IMG/VR virus record: IMGVR_UViG_3300000563_000012
Coordinates: 1 to 29,747 of that record
Strand: one strand, 5' to 3'
Length of the DNA stretch: 29,747 nucleotides
Source: a virus
Part shown: positions 7,959 through 29,742 of the stretch, one piece after another
Layout of the letters: every line of letters begins with the position of its first letter
Position numbering within the stretch: position 1 is the first letter of the stretch
Translations under genes and position numbers: made by a program
Notes under the pieces: model-generated
Told to the model about the DNA's origin: nothing
The model's input: the letters and a program-made list of their open reading frames with translations, nothing else
The model's database searches: none

Positions 7959-9271
7959 ACATCAACTGGTATTAAACTTTTGATTACCCCAATATAGGAG
8001 TTTATTTTTTCCATTATTATTTTTCTTACTGCTGGTTTTAATAATTTCACTAATAATATTAAAATTAATGTATATATATATTCATTTAATAATGACAATA
8101 ATTCTTTTACAATACATTTTACAAAATTCTTAATTTCTTTAATGTCTTCACTAAAATCAGCACTAAAAATTGATTCTCCATCTTCACTATCAAATGCACT
8201 AATAAGACCAAGTATTGCTCTTACTTGTGGTGTTGCTATTAATGAATTAACTAAACTAATACTAATTTCATTAATTATTCTTTGAAAAAAACTATCTTTT
8301 AATGTTTCACTATTTTCTTCATCAACATCATTATCTTCAATTATATCATCAGCAACTTTATTCATACGAGAACTAACATCAAAAGCATCGTTTGTGTTTT
8401 TTATATCATTAATTAATAATGATAATGAATCTAAATCAAATTTCATTGAGGCATCAACACAACCTAAATTAGATTTTAAATTACCATCAAAAATTTGATT
8501 TGCTTTTTCAAACAAACTATTTAATTCATCTTCTTTTAATTCAAAATCTTCTTCATTATTAATTGCCTTTTCTAATAATTTTCTTATTTTTAATTCATTA
8601 AAAATTTTATTTTCAGTTTTATCTTGATTTGATGATATTGTGCCAAACATACTATCCATAACATTTGACATTATTTCTTTTTTATTAATTAATTCAATTC
8701 CATCAATAAATTCACCAATCCAATCACCAATACTTGATGATGATTTAGTTGGTGTTGGTTTAAATGTCATAGTATCATTACTACTATTATATGTCATGTT
8801 TAAAACATTATATGATATAACACTTCCATCATTAACAATTGCTTCACGTGCCTTTTTATCAAAATTATCATTGTCGTCACTATAAATTAAATCACCAGTA
8901 TCTGAATTTGGATCTGTTTTTAATTTATCAGATAAATCAATATTAGATATAGGCATATTAATACCATTATTTATAAAATTATTTGGTAAATTATCACCAG
9001 AATTTTCGTTTATTGTTTGTTTTTTTAAACCATCTTTTAATTTTGGTTCAATATCATCTAAAAAATTAGTAAATAATTCCCCTGTTAATTTACTCAATAC
9101 AGCACTTCCTGCAATAACCTTTAAAATGTCTAATAAAAAAGGAATTATTTCTTTTTTATTATTAATTGAAGGGATTGTGTTATCAGAATTAGGAATTTCG
9201 GTTTGTTGTTGCATTGAAGTTAATGCTCCAATACCACTATGAACCTCTTTTTTACTGTCAATTAAGCTCAT
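7955..9271 (-). CDS. Large acidic structural-type protein with hydrophobic C-terminal helices, function unknown
   Basis: A 438-residue protein that I do not recognise. Residues about 40-75 are a hydrophobic/helical segment (EIIPFLLDILKVIAGSAVLS). The middle is acidic and Asn/Ser-rich with likely loops, and residues 210-330 contain charged helices. The C-terminus has hydrophobic helices (LLSLLNEYIYTLILILLVKL) followed by a basic patch (KPAVRKIIMEKINS). The hydrophobic segment could be a membrane span or a buried bundle. Its start overlaps the upstream stop by 1 nt (TAATG) and its stop overlaps the next gene by 4 nt. A baseplate, hub or membrane-contact role is suggested only by its neighbours. 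Confidence 0.7.
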   Translation of the reverse strand: MSLIDSKKEVHSGIGALTSMQQQTEIPNSDNTIPSINNKKEIIPFLLDILKVIAGSAVLSKLTGELFTNFLDDIEPKLKDGLKKQTINENSGDNLPNNFINNGINMPISNIDLSDKLKTDPNSDTGDLIYSDDNDNFDKKAREAIVNDGSVISYNVLNMTYNSSNDTMTFKPTPTKSSSSIGDWIGEFIDGIELINKKEIMSNVMDSMFGTISSNQDKTENKIFNELKIRKLLEKAINNEEDFELKEDELNSLFEKANQIFDGNLKSNLGCVDASMKFDLDSLSLLINDIKNTNDAFDVSSRMNKVADDIIEDNDVDEENSETLKDSFFQRIINEISISLVNSLIATPQVRAILGLISAFDSEDGESIFSADFSEDIKEIKNFVKCIVKELLSLLNEYIYTLILILLVKLLKPAVRKIIMEKINSYIGVIKSLIPVDV

Positions 9272-9642
9272 TAGTTATTATCTTTTTCAATAGCATCTTT
9301 TGCCATTTGTATTAGTTCGTTTCTTCTTTTTGATGAAATCTCATCATCATCGTTATTGGATTTTGAACTACCTGAAGGATTTTTTTCTATAAAAACAACT
9401 TCTTTCAAATATTTTAAAAGCATGATTTTCTGATCTTGATTTTTTGCTTCAGCATTAATCAATTTTACTATTTGATCTCCCATCGCTTGAATTTCACCAC
9501 CTTCTTTTACTTTAGCTTCCCATTTAGTAAAAAGTCTTGATAACTTTGCTCTTATATTATGTGTATCATTATAAATTTCTTGTAATAATTTATTTACACT
9601 TTCTTCGTTAAATTTTAACGTTTTTCTTTTAGGTCTTGCCAT
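9271..9642 (-). CDS. Small helical protein, function unknown
   Basis: A 123-residue protein with basic N-terminus MARPKRKTLKFNEESVNKLL, amphipathic helices through about residue 90, an Asp/Ser/Asn linker (GSSKSNNDDDE) and a short C-terminal helix. It resembles a small DNA-packaging or assembly factor in size and shape (a small-terminase-like protein is possible), but no signature supports this. It is the first gene after a minus-strand late-type motif (9673-9682), so it probably begins the late transcript that continues through the baseplate genes. It overlaps the next gene by one base. Confidence 0.65.
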   Translation of the reverse strand: MARPKRKTLKFNEESVNKLLQEIYNDTHNIRAKLSRLFTKWEAKVKEGGEIQAMGDQIVKLINAEAKNQDQKIMLLKYLKEVVFIEKNPSGSSKSNNDDDEISSKRRNELIQMAKDAIEKDNN

Positions 9643-10607: not shown

Positions 10608-11417
10608 TTATTTATCATCTAATAAAGAAAGATCAATATCTCTATCTTTAGTAAAATTAGATTCTTTATTTGCTGTTTCAAACCAAAACTTTCTTTCTTT
10701 AATTGCCATTGAATTATGATAATGACTAAATAAACTATCCTTTCTTTCAATTAAATGTTTATAACAAATTTTAGGTATTGTCATAATTTTCACACCATTA
10801 TTTAATGCACGTAAAAGAAATTCATACATAAATGTTAATTTAATTTTAGTTTTATACATACCTAATTCAATAAATTTTGATTTATTTATTGCTGCACCTG
10901 ATAATTTAAAATCCGTATATTGTTTTAATCCATTTATATTTAAATATCCCATTTCACCATTTTCACCAACAAATTGTTGTGCCCAAACAGTTTCATTGGT
11001 CATTTTAATTCCTTCATTCTTTTCATTTACCTCAATAATCATTGGCATGAATATATCAACTTTAGTATATGAAGTTATATACTTATCAACATTTTTTAAA
11101 TATGTAGGACTATATTCATCATCAAACTCAAGAACACTAAAAAATTTAGTTTCTACTGATTTAATTGCAAAGTTTATTTGTGATTGATAATCACTATTTT
11201 GAGTATTTACAATGTAAGTAGTATCAACATTTTTTAAATCTTTAATTTCTTTTACAGTATTTTTTACTTTATCTTCGATATTTTGAGGAAAAATTAAAAT
11301 GAGTTTTGGTAAATATTCAATTTCTTTTTGTTTTATTATTGATTCGATTGATTTTATTAAAAAATTATTAATATCATCATTAAAATCATGTATAGGAATT
11401 ATTGTTGTTACATTCAT
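10608..11417 (-). CDS. Family 2-type glycosyltransferase (GT-A fold)
   Basis: A 269-residue protein beginning MNVTTIIPIHDFND, the first strand of a GT-A nucleotide-sugar fold. It has a DxD-like acidic motif at residues 99-101 (LEFDDEYSPTYL) at the expected distance, then an acceptor-side region (FKLSGAAINKSKFIELGMYK). It should transfer a sugar from a nucleotide donor in the cytoplasm; donor and acceptor cannot be read from the sequence. It lies between a GT-B-type gene and the sigma factor in the minus-strand run, so virion-linked or DNA-linked glycosylation is possible. Fold assignment is good; specificity is unknown. Confidence 0.8.
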   Translation of the reverse strand: MNVTTIIPIHDFNDDINNFLIKSIESIIKQKEIEYLPKLILIFPQNIEDKVKNTVKEIKDLKNVDTTYIVNTQNSDYQSQINFAIKSVETKFFSVLEFDDEYSPTYLKNVDKYITSYTKVDIFMPMIIEVNEKNEGIKMTNETVWAQQFVGENGEMGYLNINGLKQYTDFKLSGAAINKSKFIELGMYKTKIKLTFMYEFLLRALNNGVKIMTIPKICYKHLIERKDSLFSHYHNSMAIKERKFWFETANKESNFTKDRDIDLSLLDDK

Positions 11418-11444
11418 AATATATATTATTTTTATATTTTTAAT

Positions 11445-12599
11445 TTATTTTTTTATGTTTTTATTGTTGTCTTGTTCAATAGCAGATTCAAACAATTTTT
11501 TTCTTTGTTCTATATATTCTTCATATATTTTAGTTAATTGTTTTTCACTATTTTTTTGACTATGTTTTGATGCAATTTCTTCCATTGATTTATACACTTC
11601 GGGTGAGATTCCATCATCTAAAAACTTAACTAAAACATCTGCAATTAACACAGGAATGTCATAATAATTATTAGTCCAAACACCACAATTATCTTTTATT
11701 TTAGTAGAATTTCCATCTTTATCTCTTTCTATTATATATTCTGGAATAATATCTGGTTTTAAACAAATTGGTATTGTTCCTGATTTCATACATTCGATTG
11801 CAAATGTTCCAAAACTAGCAATTCTATCTACCCAAACAGCAGCAAAATTATTTTGTAACCTTTTCGCAAAATCCTTCCTACGCATAGGTTGTGGTGGTTT
11901 GCTTTTTGTTAACATAGGATCAAAAGTTACCCAACTATATTGTGGATATTTAGAATAAAATAGTTTTACTATTTTAGATATTTCATTTGGATTTCTACCA
12001 ATAACAGAAATTATTGGTTTTTGAGGTAATTTTGATTTTTCAAAATAATCTGGAATTCCAATATCATATTTTTTTATATTAAATTTATTTAATCCCATAA
12101 AAACATCAACCCACTCAACTAATGATGGTGATGTTGTTAATATATCACGAACATTAAATGTAGACCAATCTGTCCCGGGTATTAAACTATTCATCATATA
12201 ATCAACTGATTGTAATAATCCAATTCTCAAACAAGGCAATTCTTTTGTTTGTTCCATTACGTTTGAAAATACTTCTGGTATAATCATAATATCTTCAGGA
12301 CCTACCGTTAGTTTAGGATCTGACATCGGAATATGTTCGTGCTCAGTTAATTCTTTTTCAACCCATTTAGGTATTTCATAATCTCCCTTTTCTACCAATA
12401 TTTTTACATTATATCCCATTTTCTTTACAACAAACGCATGGAAATATATTTCGTAAATAGATGCAATTGGATTTTCTGAATCAGGAACACAAAATAAAAA
12501 TTTAGATTTTTTATTTTCTATATTATCTAAAGAAAGTTTTATTTTTTCTAAATTTTCATTGTGCTTGTTTTCTTCTTTATTTTCTGTTTTTTTTGTCAT
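11445..12599 (-). CDS. GT-B-type glycosyltransferase (GT4-like)
   Basis: A 384-residue protein. After a charged ~30-residue N-terminus comes a Rossmann-like start (KFLFCVPDSENPIASIYEIY), then a second Rossmann domain from about residue 195 (PIISVIGRNPNEISKIVKLF). The donor-binding signature is at 252-281 (FAAVWVDRIASFGTFAIECM, then KSGTIPICLKP): the acidic E in FAIECMKSGTIP corresponds to the EX(7)E-type nucleotide-sugar site of GT4-like enzymes. It is translationally coupled to the upstream HAD-like gene by a 4-nt ATGA overlap and lies 27 nt before the family 2-type gene. Sugar and acceptor are unknown. Confidence 0.8.
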   Translation of the reverse strand: MTKKTENKEENKHNENLEKIKLSLDNIENKKSKFLFCVPDSENPIASIYEIYFHAFVVKKMGYNVKILVEKGDYEIPKWVEKELTEHEHIPMSDPKLTVGPEDIMIIPEVFSNVMEQTKELPCLRIGLLQSVDYMMNSLIPGTDWSTFNVRDILTTSPSLVEWVDVFMGLNKFNIKKYDIGIPDYFEKSKLPQKPIISVIGRNPNEISKIVKLFYSKYPQYSWVTFDPMLTKSKPPQPMRRKDFAKRLQNNFAAVWVDRIASFGTFAIECMKSGTIPICLKPDIIPEYIIERDKDGNSTKIKDNCGVWTNNYYDIPVLIADVLVKFLDDGISPEVYKSMEEIASKHSQKNSEKQLTKIYEEYIEQRKKLFESAIEQDNNKNIKK

Positions 12600-13345
12600 T
12601 TTTTATTATTTTTATATTTAATTATTTTTTCAAATTCTTTATTATTTATTAAATCCTTTATTTGTAGTATTTCTAAACCATTTGTTTTTATTTTTTCATT
12701 ATAAGGTCTATTTACTTTAATTATCTTTTTTTGAAATGGAGCACCTTTTAATAATAATTCAGGGTCTGTTGTAATTAAAATATCAATTCCTTTCCACATA
12801 TCATTATTATTATTAACAAATTTATATTTTTTAAATCTGCATGTCATTTTACTTAAGAAAAATAATGTGGGTGGTATACTAAACTTATTTTCAACAGATA
12901 ATACAGTAAAATCAACATGATTATCATATTCTAATAAAAAATTATTTACATCTAAATCCATTCCTCTGTACATAACCGTTGGAGATGCATGTAATTCAAA
13001 AAGATAATCTTCATACATAAATCTATTATAAACGTCTTTTGCAGTTAAATTATTTTTTTTTGTTTTTTTAAATAAAAAAATATCTGCTGGTGCTTCACCA
13101 TTTTCATCTTTTTGATAATCTAATGGATTTATATTCTTTGGTATTTCATCAACATCTTTTAATTCTTTTGTTTCTTCAACAATATTATTAAATTTATAAT
13201 GTTTGAAAAAATCATAAACATATGGTTGTTCTGGAATACCTTCATCCCCAAATTCTTGTGAATAAAATCTATCAAATTGTAACCATTTAGCTCTTAATAC
13301 TTCATTAATATCAATCCCTATCCTTTTTTTTCTTCTTAAATTCAT
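12596..13345 (-). CDS. HAD-superfamily-like protein with altered nucleophile motif (DxN)
   Basis: A 249-residue protein starting RKKRIGIDINEVLRAKWLQF. This matches HAD motif I (hhhhDxDGxL) in position and hydrophobicity, but the second acidic residue, normally the general acid, is Asn14 (DIN instead of DID). A later segment, GIDILITTDPELLLKGAPFQ, followed by KKIIKVNRPYNEKI, resembles the C-terminal part of 5'-nucleotidase-like HAD proteins. It overlaps the downstream glycosyltransferase gene by 4 nt and the upstream gene by 35 nt. It may be an inactive or changed-specificity phosphatase linked to nucleotide-sugar or glycan metabolism. The HAD link is by motif only. Confidence 0.6.
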   Translation of the reverse strand: MNLRRKKRIGIDINEVLRAKWLQFDRFYSQEFGDEGIPEQPYVYDFFKHYKFNNIVEETKELKDVDEIPKNINPLDYQKDENGEAPADIFLFKKTKKNNLTAKDVYNRFMYEDYLFELHASPTVMYRGMDLDVNNFLLEYDNHVDFTVLSVENKFSIPPTLFFLSKMTCRFKKYKFVNNNNDMWKGIDILITTDPELLLKGAPFQKKIIKVNRPYNEKIKTNGLEILQIKDLINNKEFEKIIKYKNNKK

Positions 13346-14968: not shown

Positions 14969-17425
14969 ATGGCAAAAAAAATTACAAGAGAAGATCTTAA
15001 AATAAGAGAAAATTATATTAAGTTATTAGAAGAAGAAAAAAATAATATATCTTCTACATTTAATTTAGAAAAAAGACGTAGTGTTGAATTAGAAATAATT
15101 TCTCAAAGACAAAGAATAATAAATGAATTAATAAAAGAACAAAAAGAAACTGGAAAAGATTATAAAGAAATAATAAAAAATTTAAATAAAGAACAAGAAA
15201 TTTCAAAAAAAAATGAGAAAAAATTAAATAATGAATTAAACACACAAAAAAAAATAAGAACTGATATAAATCGTTATTTAAGAATTGGAATTAGATATTT
15301 ACATGAACAAGATAAAATAATTAAATCTACAATTCTTAGTCTTGGTATGTCTGGTGATAGAGCAGATTTTATGAGACAATCTTTTGAAGATTCTGCTCAA
15401 TATGTTGCTAGATTAGGTGGTAGTTTAAAGGATGTTGCTGCAATAATGTTAGGTTATGCTGATATAACAGGTAGAGCACGTGCGTTATCACAAGAAAATG
15501 TTGAAGCAATTACTGCAATATATAGGGGAACTGGTTTAAGTGTAGAACAAGCAACTAAACTTGCTGCACAATATGAGTTTATGGGTAAAGATGCTAAAGC
15601 TACAATGGATTATGTTCAAGGTGTACTTGATACATCAGAAAGAATGGGAGTAAATACTGAAAAAGTGTTAATTGATGTTTCTAATAATTTTAAAAGATTA
15701 AGTACATTTACTTTTCAAAAAGGTGTTAGGGGATTTGCTGAAATGGCACAAAATGCTGAAAGAACTAGAATTAGTATACAATCTGCTTTAGATGTTGCTG
15801 AACATGTAAGAACACTAGATAATGTAATTAGATTAGGTGCTGAATTACAGGTTATGGGTGGTGAGTTTGCAAAAATGGACCCACTTCACTGGTTATATAC
15901 TGCTCGTAATGAACCAGAAAAACTACAAGAAGAATTATCAAGAATGACAAGAGGAATATATACTCTTCGTCAAACTTCTGAAGGTGCTTTTGAAAAATTT
16001 ATTAGTCCTGCAGATAGAGATAGATTATCACATGTTGCTAAATCACTAGGTATTGCTCAAGATGAAATGTTTCAAGCAGCACAAAGAGGTCTCGAACTTT
16101 CAATGATTGCTGATGATTTAGAAGGCATGGGTTTAACTACAAGAGAAAAAGAATTAGTTGAAGGTGCTGCTCAACTTTCAAGTGAAACTGGAAAAATGTT
16201 TGTTGAAATTGGTGGTGCAACAAAAGCAATTAATGATTTAACAGTAAGACAAGCAAGATCTTTTGCCGAAGAACAAAAATTATTAGAATCAAGAGCTAAA
16301 GAAGCATTAACATTTAATGAAGCTTGGGAAGCAACAATTAATGAATTCAAAAGTATATTATTACCATTATTACGTGATATTAATAGTGCAATTAGATATG
16401 TTAGACCATATGTTGAAAAATTTGCTGATTGGATAGGAGCAATTGATAGTGCATTAGTTAGATGGGTTGCTGTAGGTGCTGGTTTGGTTGGCGGTGCTAT
16501 TGCACTTAAAGGTGCTGCAAGTTTTGTTGCTGCTAAACTAGCTACAGTAAAATTACTTGGTGCTGGTGCTGGTGCTACTGGTGGTGCTGCAGCTACACTT
16601 GCAAGAGGTACTGGTGCTGGTAGAAAGGCTGCTGGTATTGGTCGTGGTGTTGGTCTTGCAGGTGTGGGTGTGGGTATTGCAGGTATTGGTACTGGTGCAG
16701 GCGTAAAAATCGCTGCTGAAGGAATTAGTGAACTTGCAGATGCTATGTCTAGATTAACTCCAGAACAAGGAGAAACTTTACAAAAAATAGGATATACATT
16801 AGCAAGTATGTTTACTGCAACTGTTGCTGTTGGTGTTATTGCTGTTGGTGTTGCAGGAAAAAAAGCTGCTATTGGTTTATTGGCAATTGGTGCTGCTGCA
16901 GTTGGAGTTGGTTTTGGTATTAAATTGGCAAGTGAAGGAGTTGCAAAAATGACAATTGGTATTGGAGAAATGATTGAAAGAAGTAAAGAAGCAGGTCCTG
17001 CTATGTTGCAAATTGGTGCTGGATTAATGGGAATGGCTGGAGCATTTACTGCATTTAATTTAGGTATGACAGGAATGGTAGCATTTAGAGCAATTTTAGG
17101 TAGTATAGCTAAAAGAGCAGATGCTTTAAATCAAGTAGGAAATGCATTTGAAAATATTGCTACTGTAATGAGAGGAAATAAAGAAGATTTTCAAGCAGTT
17201 GAAAATGCTGTTAATAGTATTTCAAATATGAATATCAAAGAAGGTGGTATTTTAAGTGATTTAGTTAATTTATTAAAACATCCATTAAAAGTAGAATTTG
17301 CTAATGATTCAATACAATTAAGAAATAATATTACATTAGAATTAGATAATGACGTACTAATGAATAAAATTATTGATGCTAATGTAATTGTAAGAAAAAT
17401 TGAAGATAGAAGAATCAATAAATAA
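14969..17425 (+). CDS. Tail tape measure protein
   Basis: An 818-residue protein whose length would set tail length and which is ejected ahead of the DNA. Residues 1-110 are strongly charged coiled coil (KLLEEEKNNISSTF, then NLNKEQEISKKNEKKLNNEL). Residues 110-470 are a helical domain with LSLGMSGDRADFMRQSFEDS and FNEAWEATINEFKSILLPLL, which is typical of tape-measure proteins. Residues 490-710 are Gly/Ala-rich hydrophobic segments (VGAGLVGGAIALKGAASFVA, VAVGVIAVGVAGKKAAIGLL), candidate membrane-inserting regions. It is 818 residues long (T4 gp29: 590). It stands after the gp26-like/frameshift gene and before the large baseplate protein. The local G+C rise comes from the Gly/Ala codons. Identity is confident. 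Confidence 0.92.
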   Translation: MAKKITREDLKIRENYIKLLEEEKNNISSTFNLEKRRSVELEIISQRQRIINELIKEQKETGKDYKEIIKNLNKEQEISKKNEKKLNNELNTQKKIRTDINRYLRIGIRYLHEQDKIIKSTILSLGMSGDRADFMRQSFEDSAQYVARLGGSLKDVAAIMLGYADITGRARALSQENVEAITAIYRGTGLSVEQATKLAAQYEFMGKDAKATMDYVQGVLDTSERMGVNTEKVLIDVSNNFKRLSTFTFQKGVRGFAEMAQNAERTRISIQSALDVAEHVRTLDNVIRLGAELQVMGGEFAKMDPLHWLYTARNEPEKLQEELSRMTRGIYTLRQTSEGAFEKFISPADRDRLSHVAKSLGIAQDEMFQAAQRGLELSMIADDLEGMGLTTREKELVEGAAQLSSETGKMFVEIGGATKAINDLTVRQARSFAEEQKLLESRAKEALTFNEAWEATINEFKSILLPLLRDINSAIRYVRPYVEKFADWIGAIDSALVRWVAVGAGLVGGAIALKGAASFVAAKLATVKLLGAGAGATGGAAATLARGTGAGRKAAGIGRGVGLAGVGVGIAGIGTGAGVKIAAEGISELADAMSRLTPEQGETLQKIGYTLASMFTATVAVGVIAVGVAGKKAAIGLLAIGAAAVGVGFGIKLASEGVAKMTIGIGEMIERSKEAGPAMLQIGAGLMGMAGAFTAFNLGMTGMVAFRAILGSIAKRADALNQVGNAFENIATVMRGNKEDFQAVENAVNSISNMNIKEGGILSDLVNLLKHPLKVEFANDSIQLRNNITLELDNDVLMNKIIDANVIVRKIEDRRINK

Positions 17426-20918: not shown

Positions 20919-21233
20919 ATGCCAAAAAAAGATTATAATAGATATAGTATTTTAAGGAACGTAAACAGACCACCTGATATGATGCCGTTTGTTAAATTAC
21001 CAGAAAATCCAAGTGATAAGTATGAAGTTTGGAATTATGGGTTTAGTAGAATGGATAAAATAAGTTTAAAATACTATGGAAATCCGTTTTATGATTTTTT
21101 AATTTTAATGGCAAATCCTCAATATAGAAGTGAGTTTGATATTGAAGATAATACAACAATTAGAATTCCATTTCCATTGAAAAAGGTAGTTGCTGATTAT
21201 GAATCAATTATTGAATCAATAAAAAATCAATAA
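20919..21233 (+). CDS. Baseplate wedge gp53/LysM-like protein
   Basis: A 104-residue protein. Residues 41-88 (GFSRMDKISLKYYGNPFYDF, LILMANPQYRSEFDIEDNTT, IRIPFPL) follow the LysM-like plan of gp53-type baseplate proteins: D.IS..YYGN...W/D..I..AN......I..G..IRIP. In T4, gp53 locks the baseplate wedge to the hub; this copy is shorter than T4 gp53 (196). It starts 2 nt after the large baseplate gene stop, so the pair is surely co-translated. It is the last tail gene before the glycosylation island. Confidence 0.8.
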   Translation: MPKKDYNRYSILRNVNRPPDMMPFVKLPENPSDKYEVWNYGFSRMDKISLKYYGNPFYDFLILMANPQYRSEFDIEDNTTIRIPFPLKKVVADYESIIESIKNQ

Positions 21234-21302: not shown

Positions 21303-22928
21303 ATGAAAAAAAATAAAATTGTTGTTGTTTTTTCATCACACTTATCCGATGAAGAAAATATTAAATTTAAAGAACATATTAGTAATACCATTGGTGTAAA
21401 ACATGAAATTGTTTGTTATGTTAATCATAATGAGTATAGTCTTTCCGAATTATATAATAAAGCATTATTAAAATATAAAGATGATAATGTTATTATAGTG
21501 TTTTGTCATAATGATATTATAATTAAAACTAAAAATTGGGGAAGAATATTATTATCTAAATTTAATAATTCAAATTATTCAATTATTGGTGTTGCTGGTT
21601 CAACATACTTACATGATAATGGTGTGTGGTGGCATGATAAAACAAAAATGAAGGGCATTGTAGAACATACAGATGGATATAATAATTGGATGTCTGAATA
21701 TAGTGACGAAAGAAAAGGACAAATAATGCCAACAATTTTAATTGATGGGTTATTTATGACTATTGATCCTAATATTATTGAACATAAATTCGATGAAGAT
21801 TTTAAGGGTTTTCATTTTTACGATATATCTTTTTGTTTTCCAAATTATTTAGATGGTTGTGATATTGGTGTAACAACAGACATTCGTATTTTACATAAAT
21901 CTGTTGGTCAAACTAACAAACAATGGGAAAAAAATAGTAAATTATTTGTGGAAAAATATAAAGATGAATTACCTAAAAAACACGTATCTGATGATAAGTT
22001 AAAAGTATTAATTTGTTGTCAATTTTTTAAAAACTTTACTGGTTCAGAGGTGAGTAATTATGAGTTGTCTAAAGAATTGGTAAAACTTGGTTGTGATGTG
22101 ACTTTAATATCAACAGTTGTTGGCAATCCTTTATTAAGTAAAGCAAAAAAAGCAGGTGTTAAGGTTTATAATATATCTAATTCACCGAATTATAAAATCG
22201 GTAATAACCAAAAATTAAATTTTTATAAAAACGAAAAAGATTTTGATATATTACATATTAATCATAAACCAATAGGTGAGATGATATTAAAAATGTACCC
22301 AAACACTCCTGCAGTAATGCATATAAGAAGTGAGGTAATACCTAAATTTGAAGAACCAATTATACATCCAATGATAAAAAAATATATTTCAATTAGAGAT
22401 AGTATTACTGAATATATAAAATCATTTAATATTAATGAAGATAAAATAACTTATATTGATAATCCTTTTGATTTTAATCGATTTAATTGTAATTATAATA
22501 TAAATATAAAAAATGAAAAAAGGATTGTTTTATTTATTGGAACATTAGATTATCTTAGAAAAGAAATATTATTTGATTTAAAAAAAATAACTAAAGAAAA
22601 TAATCAAATTCTTTGGATTATTGGTGAAAATAATGATAATTATTTAGATGAATTAAATGATGAACATATTATATATCATGGTATAAAACCAAATGTTGAG
22701 GATTATATAAAAAAATGTGATTATACCGCAGGAATATTTAAAGGTAGAACAACAATAGAAGGTTTTTTATGTGGAAAGGGAGGATGGATTTATGTTGTTA
22801 ATAAACAAGGAAAAATTTTAAGTAAAGAATTTCAAACACCACCTAAAGATACCGAAAAATATTCGAGTAAGTACTCAAGTAGAAAAGTATTTATTTTATA
22901 TAATAATATTATTAATTATTATAAATAA
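21303..22928 (+). CDS. Two-domain glycosyltransferase: StrF-like GT-A domain plus GT4-like GT-B domain
   Basis: A 541-residue fusion. Residues 1-225 resemble the StrF-type glycosyltransferase 2 family: KIVVVFSSHLSDE at the start, FCHND (67-71) as the DxD-like metal site, GVAGSTYLHDNGVWW (96-110) and FKGFHFYDISFCF (167-179). Residues about 231-541 form a GT-B enzyme: LKVLICCQFFKNFTGSEVSN (N-terminal Rossmann), KRIVLFIGTLDYLRKEIL (second Rossmann), and RTTIEGFLCGKGGWIYVV as the donor-site acidic loop. Two catalytic domains in one chain suggest successive sugar additions to one growing glycan. It is the first gene of the island with its own host-type promoter. Substrates are unknown. Confidence 0.85.
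   Translation: MKKNKIVVVFSSHLSDEENIKFKEHISNTIGVKHEIVCYVNHNEYSLSELYNKALLKYKDDNVIIVFCHNDIIIKTKNWGRILLSKFNNSNYSIIGVAGSTYLHDNGVWWHDKTKMKGIVEHTDGYNNWMSEYSDERKGQIMPTILIDGLFMTIDPNIIEHKFDEDFKGFHFYDISFCFPNYLDGCDIGVTTDIRILHKSVGQTNKQWEKNSKLFVEKYKDELPKKHVSDDKLKVLICCQFFKNFTGSEVSNYELSKELVKLGCDVTLISTVVGNPLLSKAKKAGVKVYNISNSPNYKIGNNQKLNFYKNEKDFDILHINHKPIGEMILKMYPNTPAVMHIRSEVIPKFEEPIIHPMIKKYISIRDSITEYIKSFNINEDKITYIDNPFDFNRFNCNYNINIKNEKRIVLFIGTLDYLRKEILFDLKKITKENNQILWIIGENNDNYLDELNDEHIIYHGIKPNVEDYIKKCDYTAGIFKGRTTIEGFLCGKGGWIYVVNKQGKILSKEFQTPPKDTEKYSSKYSSRKVFILYNNIINYYK
22886..22895 (+). promoter_or_regulatory. Possible late-promoter-like motif (AGTATTTATT) inside the end of the preceding gene
   Basis: AAAGTATTTATTTTATATAA occurs in the last codons of the two-domain glycosyltransferase gene, 38 nt before the ATG at 22934. 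It matches the variant before the sheath gene. Because it overlaps coding sequence it may be chance. Confidence 0.3.
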
Positions 22929-22933
22929 TTGTA

Positions 22934-24592
22934 ATGAAAAGAAATAAACTCGACATTAAAAAGGTTATTAAAAAGAAAATTGAAAATAATTATAAAAATA
23001 ATAATTACATAAATAAAAGAAAAGTGTCAAAAAAAAATGATGAGAGAAGAATGGGTGTTGGTAATGTAATTAAAAATAATGTAATTAAAAATAATGTAAT
23101 TAAAAATAATGTAATTAAAAATAATGTAATTAAAAATAATGTAAATTATTCTAGAATTACAAAATCACCTAAAATTGGAATATTAATTGTAAATTACAAC
23201 AATTTAGAATATACTAAAAATTGTGTTAACGACATAATTAATCAAATTAATCAAAATTTTATTTTATATGTTGTTGATCAAAATTCTAATGAAAAAGACA
23301 CTGATAAATATTTAAATAATTTAGATGGTAAATATGATAATATTAAAATAGTTAAAAACAATGAAAATGTTCCATTAAATTGGGTTTGGAATAATTTTTA
23401 TGAAATTTGTGATTTAGAGTATTTATGTTTTTTAAATAACGACATTAGACTTACTAATAATTTTATTGATGACACACACAGCACATTTAAATTAGAACCT
23501 TCGGTGGGTGCTATTATACACGTTACAAATAATTTAAATTATATTAAAACGGAACATAAATTAAAATATGAAATATTAACACCTCCCTTATATCAAGGAT
23601 GGGATTTTACATTAAAGAGATGTTGTTATAAAAAAATTCCAACAAATTTAAAAATTTTTGGTGGTGATGATTATCTTTTTGCTAATTTAATAAATAATAA
23701 TAATAATGTTGCATTAATATATAGTTCACCCATTATACATTATAAAGAAAGAACTAGGATAAAAATAACTAATATAAGTGATATACAAAAAAACGATGCA
23801 AAAAACTATTGGGATGAAATAAAAAAAGATAAATTAAAACAAATTGGTTCAACAGTTCCAACAAAATGTAATAAATATCCTTCAAATAACATTAAACTAT
23901 TACAAAACAAAAATTGTATATATACTGCGAGTATTGGTGATTATGATATACTTCATACATCTAATTGTGGAAAACTGGATAATTGGGATTATATATGTTT
24001 TACTGATAATAAAAATTTAAAATCTGATTTTTGGAAAATTATTTATGTTGAAAATCAACATAATAATTCATTAAATAATATTAAATTAGCGAGGTATTAT
24101 AAAACAAATCCATTTAAATTTTTATCATCATATGAAAATATTATTTGGAAAGATTCAAGAATTTCAATAAATTCTAATTTAAATAATTACTTATTATTAT
24201 TGAAGGATAATGATATGTTTTTTATGAAACACTATTGTTGTAATAGTATATTAATAGAATTTGATAATGTATTATCAGGTCGTTTAGAAACAGAAGAAAT
24301 GATAAATAAAATAAAATTAAAATATTGTAATGATAATTATCATTATGATAATGGATTGTTTGCAACTGGTATTTTAATGTATAAAAATAATATTAGAGTT
24401 CGTAAATTATTTAAAAACTGGTGGAATGAAATTAATGAAAATTCTCATAGAGACCAATTATCATTAAATTATGTTCTTTTTAAAAACCCTAATATTAAAT
24501 ACAGTTCTGATAAACAATTAAAAATATTATCACATAGTAATATGTCGTATTTTAAAGTAAATAATAGAACTAAAAAAAGATATGTATGTTAA
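22934..24592 (+). CDS. Two-domain glycosyltransferase: family 2-type domain plus DUF616/TOD1-type domain, with VIKNN repeat
   Basis: A 552-residue protein in three parts. Residues 1-75 are very basic and Asn-rich and contain five tandem VIKNN units. Residues about 80-300 are a family 2 GT-A domain (KIGILIVNYNNLEYTKNCVN; CFLNNDIRL as the acidic motif; GGDDYLFANLI). From about 328 (IYTASIGDYDILHTSNC), with DYICFTDN, NNIKLARYYKTNPFKFL, NIIWKDSRISI and HRDQLSLNYVLFK, it has the layout of the DUF616/TOD1-MUCI70 glycosyltransferase-like family. It starts 5 nt after the previous gene and overlaps the next by 7 nt. A second dual-enzyme protein next to the first suggests an ordered glycan-building pathway. 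Confidence 0.8.
   Translation: MKRNKLDIKKVIKKKIENNYKNNNYINKRKVSKKNDERRMGVGNVIKNNVIKNNVIKNNVIKNNVIKNNVNYSRITKSPKIGILIVNYNNLEYTKNCVNDIINQINQNFILYVVDQNSNEKDTDKYLNNLDGKYDNIKIVKNNENVPLNWVWNNFYEICDLEYLCFLNNDIRLTNNFIDDTHSTFKLEPSVGAIIHVTNNLNYIKTEHKLKYEILTPPLYQGWDFTLKRCCYKKIPTNLKIFGGDDYLFANLINNNNNVALIYSSPIIHYKERTRIKITNISDIQKNDAKNYWDEIKKDKLKQIGSTVPTKCNKYPSNNIKLLQNKNCIYTASIGDYDILHTSNCGKLDNWDYICFTDNKNLKSDFWKIIYVENQHNNSLNNIKLARYYKTNPFKFLSSYENIIWKDSRISINSNLNNYLLLLKDNDMFFMKHYCCNSILIEFDNVLSGRLETEEMINKIKLKYCNDNYHYDNGLFATGILMYKNNIRVRKLFKNWWNEINENSHRDQLSLNYVLFKNPNIKYSSDKQLKILSHSNMSYFKVNNRTKKRYVC
23066..23140 (+). repeat. 15-bp tandem repeat, five perfect copies, in the glycosyltransferase N-terminus
   Basis: The unit GTAATTAAAAATAAT occurs five times in a row with no mismatch (75 bp). 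The period is five codons and each unit encodes Val-Ile-Lys-Asn-Asn in frame. Copy number is likely to vary by slippage without breaking the frame. Confidence 0.95.
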
Positions 24593-25326
24593 AAAATGAA
24601 AACATTTATTACAAAAAAGATTTTAATTATTTTTTAAATAAAATAAAAAATAATGAGCACTTCAGATATTCAAGATTTAATGATGGTGAGTTAGTTGCAG
24701 TAATTGGTTCAACACCTAAAGGTGCTAATTGTGATGGACATCAGTATTTTCCTGAAATGGGAAAGAAATTAAAAGATGTTTTATTAAATTATAAAAATTC
24801 AGAAGATTATGTTTTAGAATCTTTTGATCATTGGTATAATAATTCTCTTGATATAAAAAAGATATTACATGATTTAAAAACAAAAAATCCAGAATTAGAA
24901 TTTTTGAATACTGATTTTATTAGAATTGCACATGAACAAGAACCTGAAAATTTTATAAAATTTTTGGAAATTTTGAAAACAAAAAAAATGGTAATTGTTG
25001 GTCCGTCATATTTAAAAAAACTAGATAAATATTTTAATTTTAGGTATGTAGAAGTTCCTCAAAAGAACTGTTATTTGAATATAAATAGAATTGTTGAAGA
25101 TATGAAAAAAATATCAGATATTGAAAATGATGTGTTTTTTTTATTATCTGCAAGTATGCCAGCAAATATAATAATTGATATGTTTGATGATGGAAGAAAT
25201 ACTTACTTAGATTGGGGAAGTGTTTGGGATACATTTTTTATATCACCAGAATTTAGATTTATACGTAAAAGATCATCAAGTAATAAAGTTAATATAATTG
25301 AAAAATATAAAAATTATTGGATATGA
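24586..25326 (+). CDS. GT-D-type glycosyltransferase-like protein (DxE motif)
   Basis: A 246-residue protein. FRYSRFNDGELVAVIG at residues 26-41 matches the RFGDGE signature of the GT-D fold (DUF1792-type), where the D-x-E (here Asp33-Gly34-Glu35) coordinates the nucleotide-sugar metal. The C-terminal half has KKMVIVGPSYLKKLDKYF and ASMPANIIIDMFDDGRNTYL, then DWGSVWD, in the places where GT-D proteins carry their second nucleotide-binding strand and an 'IDIG' motif. It overlaps the preceding gene by 7 nt. GT-D enzymes are known mainly from bacterial adhesin glycosylation, so protein glycosylation is one possibility. Fold assignment rests on motif pattern only. Confidence 0.7.
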   Translation: MLKNENIYYKKDFNYFLNKIKNNEHFRYSRFNDGELVAVIGSTPKGANCDGHQYFPEMGKKLKDVLLNYKNSEDYVLESFDHWYNNSLDIKKILHDLKTKNPELEFLNTDFIRIAHEQEPENFIKFLEILKTKKMVIVGPSYLKKLDKYFNFRYVEVPQKNCYLNINRIVEDMKKISDIENDVFFLLSASMPANIIIDMFDDGRNTYLDWGSVWDTFFISPEFRFIRKRSSSNKVNIIEKYKNYWI

Positions 25327-25982
25327 AAAAATTAGATAGTTTATGTATGCTAGTTCATACTTGTGATAAATATAATTTTTGTTGGGAAGGATGGTATTTA
25401 TCGTTTTTAAAAAATTGGAATAATGAAAAAATTAAAGTATTTTTTGTTAATGAAGAAAAAAATATTTTTTATGAAAACATAAAACAAATAAAAACGGGGT
25501 TTGGTGAATGGTCAGATAGGTTGATATTTGCATTAAATAAAATTAATTATGAAAATATATTATATATTCAAGAAGATATGTGGTTTAATAAAAAAATTGA
25601 TATTAATTCATATTTTTTTGATTTTATTGAATATGAAATGGATGCATTAAGATTATTAAATGGAGTTTATGGAAATTCAAGACACTATCAATTTGAAGAT
25701 AATGTTTATAATAATAAATATTTAAAATTTCATAAAAATAGTCAATATTTAATTTCTCATCAACCATCGATATGGAAAAAAAATTTTTTTTTAGAAAATT
25801 TAGAAATTGGTGAAAATCCTTGGAATAACGAAATTAATGGAACGAATAGAATAATACGAAATAAAAAAAAACATTCCATTTATTCGGTAATTGGTTTAGA
25901 GGAATGGTATAATCATGTAGTTAGGAAAGGTAATTTAACTAACAACGGAAAGAAAATATTAAAAAAATTAAAAGAAAATTGA
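25323..25982 (+). CDS. Glycosyltransferase-like protein (GT-A-type, unclassified)
   Basis: A 219-residue protein if begun at the ATG at 25323, which overlaps the upstream stop as ATGA. A TTG six nt earlier is in frame but less likely. The start LDSLCMLVHTCDKYNFCWEG, the FGEWSDRLIFAL segment and YIQEDMWF (82-88, with an acidic DxD-like ED) follow the plan of small GT-A enzymes: a first beta strand, a nucleotide-proximal helix and a metal-binding acidic turn. The C-terminal part has RLLNGVYGNSRHYQ and HQPSIWKKNFFLENL, plausible acceptor-side elements. It is coupled to both neighbours (4-nt overlaps). Identity as a glycosyltransferase is moderate; substrates are unknown. Confidence 0.65.
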   Translation: MKKLDSLCMLVHTCDKYNFCWEGWYLSFLKNWNNEKIKVFFVNEEKNIFYENIKQIKTGFGEWSDRLIFALNKINYENILYIQEDMWFNKKIDINSYFFDFIEYEMDALRLLNGVYGNSRHYQFEDNVYNNKYLKFHKNSQYLISHQPSIWKKNFFLENLEIGENPWNNEINGTNRIIRNKKKHSIYSVIGLEEWYNHVVRKGNLTNNGKKILKKLKEN

Positions 25983-26515
25983 TAGTTTTTACGAAAAATT
26001 TTAAAGGTATTGACTCAATAATTAATTTATTTAATAAAGATGATCTTATTTTTGTTGAGATTGGTGTATATGCGGGAGATGCATCTTTAAGATTTTTAAA
26101 ATCTAATAAAATAAAAAAATATTATGCTATTGATCCTTGGATGAATAATTATGATTCTAATGATTCTCTCTCAAAAAGAGAAAATATGGGTGAAGCTGAA
26201 TTATCTTTTGATAAAAAAACAAAAAAATATTTTAATAGAATTGTTAAATTAAAATTAAAATCCGATAATGCGGTTAAATTTATTGAAGAAAAAATAGATG
26301 GTATATATATTGATGGCTTGCATTCATATGAAGGAGTGAAACATGATATACAAAATTATTATCCATTAATTAAGGATGGTGGTATTATTTCTGGTCATGA
26401 TTATAATAATACTTGGTCAGGTGTAATTAGAGCAGTAAATGAAGTATTAGGGAAACCCGATTATGTTTTTGATGATAGTAATTGGGTTGTAATAAAAAAA
26501 CGGCAGATAAATTAG
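25979..26515 (+). CDS. Class I SAM-dependent methyltransferase (Methyltransf_24-like), TTG start
   Basis: A 178-residue protein. The SAM-binding motif I is FVEIGVYAGDAS (25-36), the acidic strand-2 residue is in YAIDPW (49-54), and the YIDGLHSYEGVKHDIQNYYP and GGIISGHDY segments are characteristic of the Methyltransf_24 type. No ATG lies upstream of motif I, so the start is most likely the TTG at 25979, which overlaps the previous stop (TTGA) and would depend on translational coupling. In a glycosyltransferase cluster such enzymes often O-methylate sugars, for instance to cap a chain; that is inference. It resembles the next gene. Confidence 0.8.
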   Translation: MIVFTKNFKGIDSIINLFNKDDLIFVEIGVYAGDASLRFLKSNKIKKYYAIDPWMNNYDSNDSLSKRENMGEAELSFDKKTKKYFNRIVKLKLKSDNAVKFIEEKIDGIYIDGLHSYEGVKHDIQNYYPLIKDGGIISGHDYNNTWSGVIRAVNEVLGKPDYVFDDSNWVVIKKRQIN

Positions 26516-26521
26516 TGTAAT

Positions 26522-27130
26522 ATGAATAGAACGACAATAATAAATTCAATAATTTCTAAATATAAATTCAAATCATATCTGGAAATAGGCGTTAGAGACC
26601 CAAGAGAGAATTTTAATGAAATAAAATGTGATTTTAAGCATGGTGTTGATCCTGCACCAATAAAACCCGTTAAATTTAAGATGATAAGTGATGAATTTTT
26701 TAAAAATCACGTTAATAATCAAAAATATGATGTTATATTTGTAGATGGTTTGCATACTGCCGAGCAGTCATATAAAGATGTTAAAAATTCAATAAATTGT
26801 CTTACAGATCAAGGTTTCATTGTAATGCATGATTGTAATCCACCAACAGAATATCATACAAGAAGTTATGATGAATATTTAAAAACAAGAGGGCAATGGA
26901 ATGGTGATGTTTTTAAAGCATTTATTAAATTAAAAAAGGAATTAAAGGGTTGGAATTGTTTTGTAATTGACGAAGATTTTGGGTGTGGGGTAATAACAAA
27001 AAATGAATTAAAAAATGATTTTTTTTCATTAGAAACAATACCAAATAATATTACTTGGGAATATTTTAATAAAAACAGAAAAATTTTATTGGATTTAATT
27101 ACTTATAATGATTTTATAAAAATTATTTAA
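26522..27130 (+). CDS. Class I SAM-dependent methyltransferase (Methyltransf_24-like), second copy
   Basis: A 202-residue protein with the same motif order as its upstream neighbour: SYLEIGVRDPRENF (18-31; motif I, though the usual Gly after GV is replaced), HGVDP (40-44), DVIFVDGLHTAEQSYKDV (70-87) and GFIVMHDCNPP (98-108). The shared DGLH motif and gene adjacency suggest an old duplication with divergence. The longer C-terminus (WNGDVFKAFIKLKKEL and CGVITK) may bind the acceptor. Starts 6 nt after the previous stop. It is the last gene of the glycosylation island. Confidence 0.8.
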   Translation: MNRTTIINSIISKYKFKSYLEIGVRDPRENFNEIKCDFKHGVDPAPIKPVKFKMISDEFFKNHVNNQKYDVIFVDGLHTAEQSYKDVKNSINCLTDQGFIVMHDCNPPTEYHTRSYDEYLKTRGQWNGDVFKAFIKLKKELKGWNCFVIDEDFGCGVITKNELKNDFFSLETIPNNITWEYFNKNRKILLDLITYNDFIKII

Positions 27131-27173: not shown

Positions 27174-27827
27174 ATGTTGATTGAAATGAAACTAGCAAAC
27201 ATTATCTTTGAAAATGAGTTAATAAATCATACAAAAGTAGATTATGTTAATTATTATAACGAACCACAATTATATGATGATATAGATAAAACACTTCCAA
27301 CTCTTTATGTTGGTTGGAATTTCATGAAAAAATCTAATCCAAATAATCAAATAATTCAAAATGCTGATATATTAAAAGAAAGAATAATTAAAAATTATTT
27401 ATATTTTACATTTAGTTTTGATGAAAGTAAAAGTACTCATGTAAAAGGAGTTGATAAATTTATAAAAAAAGCTCCTGAACTCTATTTTAATCCAAAATAT
27501 AAATATATTAATAATGATCCTGTTTTTCTTCAAATACACAATATAGATGATTTATTTAATAAAATTCCAAAAGAAATTGATAGTTATTATTTATTAAAGA
27601 ATGATATGTTATATATTCTATGTGGAAAAGAGATTTTTGGTTTAGATTTGAAAATGTATAATTATTTTCAATTTAATGTTGAAAAAATTAAAAATGAGAT
27701 AAATAATAGAGCATCTATAAAGTTCAATGATCTTGATGGTAATTTATATGCCAAATATTATAAAAAATTTCCAGACTTTTCTTATCTTAAAAGATATTTA
27801 GTTGTTTTATTGACAAATAACGAATAA
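27174..27827 (+). CDS. Unknown protein after the glycosylation island
   Basis: A 217-residue protein (ATG at 27174; a second ATG four codons later could also serve). It has mixed alpha/beta character, rich in Asn, Lys and Tyr: NYYNEPQLYDDIDKTLPTLY, then VGWNFMKKSNPN near residues 45-60, and FQFNVEKIKNEINNRASIKF late. I recognise no family, signal peptide or membrane span. It is separated from the methyltransferase by 43 nt and from the late-type motif of the next unit by 26 nt, so it may close the preceding transcript. No promoter of either class is visible just before it. Confidence 0.65.
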   Translation: MLIEMKLANIIFENELINHTKVDYVNYYNEPQLYDDIDKTLPTLYVGWNFMKKSNPNNQIIQNADILKERIIKNYLYFTFSFDESKSTHVKGVDKFIKKAPELYFNPKYKYINNDPVFLQIHNIDDLFNKIPKEIDSYYLLKNDMLYILCGKEIFGLDLKMYNYFQFNVEKIKNEINNRASIKFNDLDGNLYAKYYKKFPDFSYLKRYLVVLLTNNE

Positions 27828-28873: not shown

Positions 28874-29296
28874 ATGGAAAAACAACACAACACAAAAAAA
28901 AGATTATTTGAAATATTTGAGAAGGTAAATAAAATCAACCTTAATGAATGGTATCATGACGAATATTATGATAAACCTAAACAACTCAAAGGTATTGGTG
29001 GGTTTGGTAATATTGATTGGAAAATATTACACGAACAGTTAATGGTAAATACCGATGTCGGTGATTTTACTGATTATGATGGTATGTTGAGTCATGATGA
29101 ATTAAAACATTTAGAAGCATTCGATTTATTAGCAATTAATGGTGCGTTTCCTGTTATTGATAATGAACAATATAGGGAATATAATACGTTTAAATCAAAA
29201 GCGTTGGAAATATGGAATAAAGAAACCCCGATTCAAACACAATCAAATGATAGTGAATCACCATTTTTAAGAGGTAATGAACCTTCAAATATATAA
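28874..29296 (+). CDS. Small protein with N-terminal RLFE-x4-VN tag, function unknown
   Basis: A 140-residue protein. Its start KKRLFEIFEKVNKINLNEWY is closely like that of the next gene (KERLFEMLKRVNRLNEE). The rest (YYDKPKQLKGIGGFGNIDWK, MLSHDELKHLEAFDLLAING) has no family I know and ends in a Ser/Gln-rich tail. The shared amphipathic N-terminus in two otherwise unlike proteins looks like a targeting or cleavable tag, comparable in idea to the capsid-targeting sequences of T4 internal proteins. Starts 4 nt after the upstream stop and ends 2 nt before the metallopeptidase ATG. Confidence 0.65.
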   Translation: MEKQHNTKKRLFEIFEKVNKINLNEWYHDEYYDKPKQLKGIGGFGNIDWKILHEQLMVNTDVGDFTDYDGMLSHDELKHLEAFDLLAINGAFPVIDNEQYREYNTFKSKALEIWNKETPIQTQSNDSESPFLRGNEPSNI

Positions 29297-29298
29297 TT

Positions 29299-29742
29299 AT
29301 GAGAATTTCGCATCCATATGGTTCAAAGGAAAGACTTTTTGAAATGTTGAAAAGGGTTAATCGTCTTAATGAGGAAATTCTTCCAAAAGAGAAGAAGAAT
29401 GAGGTGATTAATAATTTTATTGAGTTCGTGAAAAAAGAAATTGGAATGAATGACGTTCCCGAAATAGAAATATCATATGACAATAAGATCGCACAAGACA
29501 TGCGTTCATTTGGTAAATATACACCAGAAAATAATGAACTATTAATTGTTGCTACAAATAGGAATTTAGCTGATATATTAAGAACTATAGCACATGAATT
29601 GATTCATCATAAACAATTTTCAGATGGTAAAATTACACATAATTCCAATGATACTGGAAGTGATGTAGAAAATGAAGCAAATTCATTAGCAGGTATTATT
29701 ATGAGGAAATTTGCAAAATTAAAACCAATAATTTTTGAATAA
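29299..29742 (+). CDS. Zinc metallopeptidase (HExxH) with N-terminal RLFE-x4-VN tag
   Basis: A 147-residue protein. After a tag-like N-terminus (KERLFEMLKRVNRLNEE) the catalytic core has IAHELIHHKQ (H99-E100-x-x-H103) and, about 20 residues later, DVENEANSLAGIIMRKF, whose Glu124 or Glu126 would be the third zinc ligand in the style of gluzincins such as ImmA/IrrE-type peptidases. So a zinc-dependent endopeptidase is likely. The small size and the tag shared with the upstream gene suggest a virion-associated or injected peptidase, or a maturation factor; this is inference. The complete stop is at 29740-29742. Confidence 0.75.
   Translation: MRISHPYGSKERLFEMLKRVNRLNEEILPKEKKNEVINNFIEFVKKEIGMNDVPEIEISYDNKIAQDMRSFGKYTPENNELLIVATNRNLADILRTIAHELIHHKQFSDGKITHNSNDTGSDVENEANSLAGIIMRKFAKLKPIIFE

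Follow-up and report, generated by a model that had tools for sequence, protein, structure and literature searches.

The window analysed here is the whole of virus record IMGVR_UViG_3300000563_000012 from IMG/VR, an AT-rich stretch of 29,747 bases that is probably a fragment of a larger genome and that carries a contractile tail module, with sheath, tube, baseplate hub and, more weakly, wedge-like genes recognised in PHROG scans. Within it, a block of six genes at 21,303–27,130, made up mainly of predicted glycosyltransferases (GTs) and methyltransferases, is one version of a hypervariable island in which the slot and the first enzyme are kept and the remainder is swapped between related phages. 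The slot lies between a baseplate-wedge-like gene and a conserved gene, g27174; at its head stands GT1, whose N-terminal StrF-like domain (GT1N, about residues 1–225) recurs across relatives, and a conserved GT-B/GT2 pair lies elsewhere in the window. With little more than even confidence, we read the whole as a serotype-locus-like site of glycan assembly in large contractile-tailed phages, themselves represented only in metagenomes; soluble enzymes acting there would glycosylate a cytoplasmic acceptor, most likely virion proteins.

A fixed slot with a conserved head enzyme

Relatives of the window were gathered from viral contigs by scans with GT1 and with neighbouring genes, and 46 records were searched whole. 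When 26 window proteins were compared with these relatives by tblastn, the first ~220 residues of gene 1 (GT1) persisted in records that lack the remainder of the block. GT1N was found in 28 of the 46 records, the wedge-like gene in 29 and g27174 in 45 (two of these at 27–28% identity only), with g27174 present in 27 of the 28 GT1N-bearing records. GT1N accompanies the wedge-like gene beyond what chance would give, in 27 of the 29 records showing that gene, or in 24 of 26 once the three records recruited by the GT1 search are set aside. Sixteen of the 18 records without GT1N are also without the wedge-like gene, as expected if they are cut; the other two, G007 and G008, are the most distant relatives (wedge-like gene at 38% and 45%, g27174 at 27–28%) and have their flanks 5–6 kb apart with no GT1N between them. 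Among loci from a later profile scan and outside a distant clade described below (clade 2), the wedge-like gene lay upstream of GT1 in 33 of 33 cases, 39–3614 nt away and within 100 nt in 16, although near-duplicate loci (for example L197/L198, L254/L257/L258 and L236/L237) are uncollapsed in this count and in the clade 2 count of 45.

GT1N identity between records also tracks g27174 identity (Spearman 0.48, a value reached by one of 2,000 permutations). At one locus (L163, G001:C1:101044-101175), a stop-containing GT1N remnant of 44 residues was observed ~1 kb upstream of the intact gene, possibly the scar of a recombination event at the island head. The GenBank phage collection gave no match to the wedge-like protein, g27174, g11445 or g10608, nor to GT1, which was compared with 50,697 records.

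Exchange of island content

Island content was compared across the window and 20 distinct records, which were picked for GT1N and g27174, so that both are constant by choice. The GT1N-bearing records left aside were G026, G027 and G046 (apparently near-identical to G025), G032 (to G038), G041–G043 (to G040) and G001, which is without g27174. From the start of GT1N to g27174, the 21 islands span 1.5–23 kb (median 10 kb), and their 273 proteins fall into 142 clusters, 102 of them seen once; genes in the relatives were called with a simple longest-open-reading-frame script, and small counts may shift. The genes are tightly packed, with 184 of 247 gaps at 6 nt or less and only five of the 273 genes on the opposite strand. 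The window's own genes behind GT1 reappeared in few of the 20 other islands (gene 2 in two, gene 3 in six, gene 4 in two, gene 5 in one and gene 6 in three), and 73 of 171 island pairs had no common cluster past the first gene.

Exchange extends into GT1 itself, as the C-terminal partner of GT1N was a GT4 domain in seven islands, a GT2 domain in eight, another sequence in one and absent in five, and two of the eight GT1N-GT2 fusions carried a further stretch of ~200 residues. The two smallest islands contain GT1 and no other gene. From the GT1 start, records G025 and G039 share 2,315 bp at 92% identity and then encode mostly different genes until g27174, apart from a displaced 1,766-bp stretch shared at 90% and a weak 230-bp match. 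Foreign base composition was rejected as a mark of the island, with island G+C lying below flank G+C in just six of 21 cases. The first-pass annotation had described the block as an inserted island whose presence or absence in relatives should be compared; that comparison revealed more than an insertion, with the slot and first enzyme kept and the remainder exchanged.

A conserved glycosyltransferase pair and a second genomic position

Two further GTs, g10608 (GT2) and g11445 (GT-B), are encoded outside the island and were retained in 24 of 26 records, being absent only from the distant G008 and from G013, whose contig starts just before the slot. Record G040, whose island consists of GT1 alone, retains both. 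The g11445 family profile matched structure 8XSG, an Actinobacillus glucosyltransferase (PMC12159676), and nine of 12 family members matched Glycos_transf_1 weakly. A weakly baseplate-hub-like protein (PHROG 0.001) is encoded in the same minus-strand run as the pair, where gaps are mostly short (one is 178 nt), and we take the genes at 10,608–12,599 to be part of the same glycan system.

The profile scan recovered 474 GT1 relatives in viral contigs, and the locus counts given here come from the 80 that were kept. Of these, 45 form clade 2, in which GT1 is 40–46% identical across its two domains and the retrieved DNA shows no wedge match. Three to 12 genes separate GT1 from g12596, a conserved protein beside the core pair, in 14 of the 45 loci, and g12596 is followed by g11445 and g10608 where the DNA continues; in the remaining 31, the retrieved stretch did not reveal g12596. 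Three clade 2 records searched whole (G047–G049) encode g11445 on the same strand as GT1, ~10–12 kb downstream. A GT1-led run of glycan genes thus occurs at two genomic positions, an arrangement suggesting that GT1 is the functional head of the run. Only one bacterial contig had a GT1 relative; it came from a Bacteroidota metagenome-assembled genome and is probably phage, because the same tail genes lie upstream of GT1.

Enzymes encoded by the window block

The first-pass annotation had placed six co-directional genes at 21,303–27,130, and the open reading frame coordinates agree, successive plus-strand genes being 5 or 6 nt apart or overlapping by 4–10 nt (Table 1). Four of the six have firm Pfam matches to transferase or methyltransferase families.

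Table 1. Genes of the island slot and the conserved glycosyltransferase pair, in window coordinates
Feature	Position	Strand	Evidence
Baseplate-wedge-like gene	20919..21233	+	nearest conserved gene 5' of the slot; PHROG baseplate wedge 4.7e-4, weak
GT1 (gene 1)	21303..22928	+	StrF-like GT-A N-terminal domain PF13712 1.6e-26, fused to GT4 PF13439 1.8e-9
Gene 2	22934..24592	+	GT2 domain PF00535 4.4e-11, plus C-terminal TOD1/DUF616-like glycosyltransferase domain
Gene 3, GT-D-like	24586..25326	+	PF22882 5.4e-4, 19.8 bits, under cut-off 27
Gene 4	25317..25982	+	possibly GT-A transferase; three island relatives at 8.5e-12, 1.1e-8 and 0.005
Gene 5, class I methyltransferase	25979..26515	+	PF13578 (Methyltransf_24) 2.8e-17
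Gene 6, class I methyltransferase	26522..27130	+	PF13578 (Methyltransf_24) 2.2e-8
g27174	27174..27827	+	conserved gene closing the slot
g10608, core GT2 glycosyltransferase	10608..11417	-	PF00535 2.1e-8, above cut-off; 24/26 records
g11445, core GT-B glycosyltransferase	11445..12599	-	family profile vs 8XSG 1.7e-17; 24/26 records
g12596, conserved protein beside core pair	12596..13345	-	3' of GT1-led island in clade 2

GT1 scored 93.8 bits against PF13712 (curated cut-off 27), and two relatives scored 86.5 and 68.8 bits. Its structure model is confident over residues 1–225 only, the GT4 half being poor; the nearest solved structure was Majastridin, and most of the next neighbours were GalNAc-transferases, from humans and other sources, and LARGE1, which are GT-A enzymes. 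Sequence searches of GT1 against solved structures returned two weak response-regulator matches with the single sequence and one weak match with a profile.

The C-terminus of gene 2 matched PF04765 (TOD1/DUF616) at 7e-6 and 19.1 bits, under the cut-off of 21.4, and PHROG glycosyltransferase family phrog_26101 at 4.1e-19. Its N-terminal part is a lysine/asparagine-rich leader in which the peptide VIKNN is repeated five times in tandem (23,066–23,140), a tract that is possibly a slippage site; the alignment with the gene 2 relative in G039 starts at residue 81. Gene 3 is related to island cluster c1, one member of which scored 26.3 bits against PF08759 (cut-off 27). In the island of G017 (slice 8075-9568; L172:4137-5627, minus strand), a fusion joins relatives of the gene 2 GT2 domain and of the GT-D-like gene 3, which suggests that GT2 and GT-D-like proteins act together.

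Gene 4 had no Pfam, PHROG or NCBIfam matches, and a scan of viral contigs with it gave two pattern matches, neither confirmed. Its model is poor (mean predicted local distance difference test score, pLDDT, 47), with GT-A enzymes as the top structural neighbours, all weaker than E 0.001. Neither gene 4 nor gene 6, the second methyltransferase, matched any solved structure in single-sequence searches. Gene 6 has relatives at 58% and 52% identity in the islands of G017 and G013. The methyltransferase encoded by gene 5 would probably act in sugar O-methylation.

Of the domains named in the first-pass annotation, the StrF-like, GT4, GT2 and two methyltransferase assignments are therefore firm, the TOD1/DUF616 and GT-D-like ones are plausible at scores under their cut-offs, and the GT-A assignment of gene 4 is unproven. 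It had also counted three GT folds in the block; on these family matches, GT-A and, by Pfam alone, GT-B are supported, and GT-D is probable (19.8 bits against 27). Its statement that the window lacks nucleotide-sugar genes agreed with scans of 28 window proteins against PHROGs and of 20 against Pfam. Unlike the window block, relatives do carry such genes at the same slot.

Elsewhere in the window, g27174 had no convincing family match in Pfam or PHROG. A tape-measure-like protein, labelled by its look and with no family match, is encoded at 14,969–17,425 and has four hydrophobic segments; G+C is locally high within its gene (38% at 16–17 kb vs 18–30% elsewhere). Two adjacent proteins, at 28,874–29,296 and 29,299–29,742, have a common N-terminal motif, K-RLFE-(I/M)--(K/R)VN--NE, and the second is metalloprotease-like. 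The motif bears a likeness to the capsid-targeting leaders that prohead proteases cleave.

Sugar-nucleotide enzymes and export genes across the islands

Island clusters were named from one representative each, and the main family scan covered 115 of the 142 representatives; outside it were 12 singletons of less than 100 amino acids and a further 15 clusters, all scanned elsewhere except c9, which comprises GT1N relatives. Among the 25 Pfam families listed, of the 77 matched by these 115 slot proteins, the commonest were GT2, NAD-dependent epimerase/dehydratase and several methyltransferase families, with aminotransferase and sulfotransferase domains likewise present and no tail-fibre families. 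The best NCBIfam matches included dTDP-glucose 4,6-dehydratase (5.2e-117), GDP-mannose 4,6-dehydratase (3.2e-88) and GDP-fucose synthase (1.3e-86), with member counts inflated by cross-matches inside their superfamily. A UDP-GlcNAc 2-epimerase cluster, above its NCBIfam cut-off, was found in 11 of the 21 islands. An HldD-like cluster scored 330.6 bits (cut-off 274.6), and HldE-like kinase (3.9e-37) and adenylyltransferase (3.8e-28) were the best family matches of their clusters, under their cut-offs. In the islands of G010, G012, G013, G021, G033 and G038, the HldE/HldD-like genes lie at the right end near g27174, forming an ADP-heptose-type set.

By a simple hydropathy rule, 263 of the 273 island proteins had no hydrophobic segment, nine had one and one had two, so that none exceeded two as would a multi-pass flippase or polymerase of the Wzx/Wzy type; the Escherichia coli O-antigen flippase rfbX and polymerase wbbH, used as controls, had nine and six. 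Lipid-carrier initiators (PF02397, PF00953) and the flippase family PF01943 were found in none of 13 large records (113–365 kb, some of them maybe fragments), and the same models detected members in nine, 12 and 13 of 14 positive-control genomes, respectively. On these two results, export of a Wzx/Wzy polymer from phage genes alone was rejected.

Putative function of the island

On the virion-glycan reading that we prefer, the conserved core would consist of GT1N at the slot head and the GT-B/GT2 pair, kept in nearly all close relatives, with 0 to about 30 genes behind GT1N, and the second domain of GT1 itself, swapped between phages. The enzymes, which appear soluble from their sequences, would work in the host cytoplasm, where GT1N and the core pair would start and build an inner glycan on a cytoplasmic acceptor; the variable GTs would then add outer sugars, and the methyltransferases would modify or cap them. 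The window version would draw on host nucleotide sugars, whereas larger versions may supply some themselves, and the purpose would be an altered virion surface chemistry. One or more virion proteins are favoured as the acceptor, since GT1 sits among structural genes in the window clade and chloroviruses offer a precedent of mostly soluble GT and methyltransferase sets. The proposal of the first-pass annotation that the block is an assembly line for a defined, methylated glycan fits the genes, and the slots of relatives are richer in GTs, methyltransferases and sugar-nucleotide enzymes; the glycan should differ between most relatives. More tentatively, such phages may have virion serotypes, in which a conserved initiating GT and a swappable cassette place a lineage-specific glycan on tail or capsid proteins, so that swapping cassettes would drive the evolution of the coat, with ADP-heptose-type genes serving it in some lineages; we regard this extension as possible rather than probable.

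Several observations weigh against a virion glycan. Gene neighbourhood is weak evidence for an acceptor: at the one clade 2 locus that was annotated, the place just upstream of GT1 is taken by an exonuclease, a dUTPase and a PHROG glycosyltransferase instead of tail genes. G007 and G008 show that some distant relatives do without the head enzyme. Island content is partly tied to ancestry (Jaccard similarity vs g27174 identity, Spearman 0.46; vs GT1N identity, 0.24). T4-type late promoter words number 19 vs 14.3 expected, which is no excess and leaves late expression unsupported; nothing was found in support of the first-pass description of the island as early. Soluble GTs could instead act on host lipopolysaccharide core or on lipid-linked sugars exported by the host, the hydropathy rule is crude, and PF02397, PF00953 and PF01943 do not span every export route. 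Clusters resembling HldE kinase, HldE adenylyltransferase and HldD occur together in six of the 21 islands, and the core of lipopolysaccharide is classically built with ADP-heptose as donor. The best PHROG families of genes 5 and 6 carry the label 'DNA methyltransferase'.

Host lipopolysaccharide is a serious rival target, DNA less so. The island would in that case remodel host surface sugars (lipopolysaccharide core or lipid-linked glycans) from the cytoplasm by way of host flippases, resulting in a superinfection block or receptor masking, which we consider unlikely on present evidence. Enzymes of the HldE/HldD, UDP-GlcNAc 2-epimerase, dTDP-glucose dehydratase and GDP-fucose types are characteristic of surface-sugar synthesis, and the GTs of core lipopolysaccharide are themselves soluble or peripheral. 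Against it stand the lack of island proteins with more than two hydrophobic segments, the absence of the three export-related families from the 13 large records and the position of the core GTs in a minus-strand run with a weakly baseplate-hub-like gene, points that remain compatible with use of host export. A host-surface role has also been assigned to the GTs of the hypervariable host-recognition island of pelagimyophages (PMC7029224).

A role in hypermodifying phage DNA, in which modified bases would bear an oligosaccharide as an anti-restriction coat, seems to us improbable. It would accommodate the location of GT1 near dUTPase and exonuclease in clade 2 (one locus), the thymidylate-synthase-family genes in nine of 14 large records and the PHROG methyltransferase label. 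T4-type glucosylation of hydroxymethylcytosine was nonetheless rejected, as all eight thymidylate synthase homologues tested from relatives keep the thymidylate-type Asn at the site that marks a dCMP hydroxymethylase (ThyA Asn177; G046 left out), a position that is Asp in T4 gp42 when aligned with them; this evidence bears on hydroxymethylcytosine rather than hydroxymethyluracil routes, and the G030 and G045 homologues are divergent around the catalytic cysteine. The window is itself too short to reveal a hydroxymethylase gene of this kind. The thymidylate-synthase matches are also confined to one place in each of the nine records, and T4 beta-glucosyltransferase, searched by tblastn at 1e-3 over the fetched loci, matched only itself.

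Ordinary accretion, in which a recombination-tolerant gap gathers unrelated cargo with no single pathway, would explain the 102 singletons among 142 clusters and the match of two of 115 scanned proteins to a LAGLIDADG model, and is very improbable given a head gene retained by 27 of the 29 wedge-bearing records, tight co-directional packing, annotated content of mainly GTs, methyltransferases and sugar-nucleotide enzymes, and a GT1-led run at a second position in the distant clade. The first-pass annotation had listed virion, DNA and host surface as possible targets; these can now be ranked rather than settled, with Wzx/Wzy-type export and T4-type hydroxymethylcytosine argued against.

Relation to known systems

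Phage GTs are usually explained as modifiers of DNA or of the host surface. Virion glycosylation occurs in mycobacteriophages, for which we know of no hypervariable slot. GT-rich hypervariable islands are known in T4-like pelagimyophages, where they are read as modifying the host O-chain (PMC7029224). The host recognition cluster of these pelagimyophages and of cyanomyophages resembles the present island in being hypervariable, lying within the structural region and encoding several GTs, and the presence of rfaE among lipopolysaccharide-type genes in these phages recalls the HldE-bearing islands (PMC7029224). That cluster differs in lying between VrlC and gp14, averaging 44.6 kb in pelagimyophages and including tail fibres (PMC7029224), whereas here, comparing by description, the flanks are a wedge-like gene and g27174 and one first enzyme is kept.

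Virus-encoded virion glycosylation, in PBCV-1, the Megavirinae and mycobacteriophages, offers another parallel, with clustered GTs and sugar-modifying enzymes and no membrane export genes, a likeness in gene content. In chlorovirus PBCV-1 (A064R, A061L), virus GTs, most of them predicted to be soluble, and methyltransferases, including multidomain transferases, build and methylate the capsid glycan (PMC9614988); this is an algal virus, and the sole hint of homology is structure 2p73, a weak fold neighbour of gene 4 from a low-confidence model. Fibril clusters of the Megavirinae comprise six to 33 genes for nucleotide sugars and GTs and produce clade-specific glycans (PMC10117803), but those are amoebal viruses, whereas the present islands belong to phages, with a kept head enzyme and exchanged genes behind it. 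In mycobacteriophages, glycans are found on capsid and tail tube subunits (Freeman 2023 as cited in PMC12619734). Bacterial O-antigen and capsule loci (with the E. coli K-12 rfb region as control) likewise have a fixed slot, conserved flanks and swapped GT and sugar-nucleotide genes, but here there is no recognisable flippase, polymerase or lipid-carrier initiator.

Moraphages are large aquatic phages with mostly predicted Bacteroidota hosts, T4-like tail genes and four core families annotated as glycosyltransferases (PMC12619734). By description, clade 2 resembles them in having several GTs, here GT1, one more GT ahead of it, g11445 and g10608. The content of moraphage variable islands was left to future work by the authors, and the accessible part of that paper contains no account of a slot or head gene (PMC12619734). 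Our literature search, with most subscription papers outside its coverage, returned no title or abstract opening describing a slot with a kept head GT and an exchanged cassette. GT-rich hypervariable phage islands are thus already known, and the new element seems to be the kept head enzyme with its exchanged cassette.

One phage lineage, then, retains its head enzyme and swaps most of the genes behind it, nucleotide-sugar genes included. The kept enzyme provides a handle on the system, since once its acceptor is found, the remainder could be read from it. If the glycan is on the virion, these phages would have evolving sugar coats comparable to bacterial serotypes, with a bearing on adsorption, persistence and host recognition.

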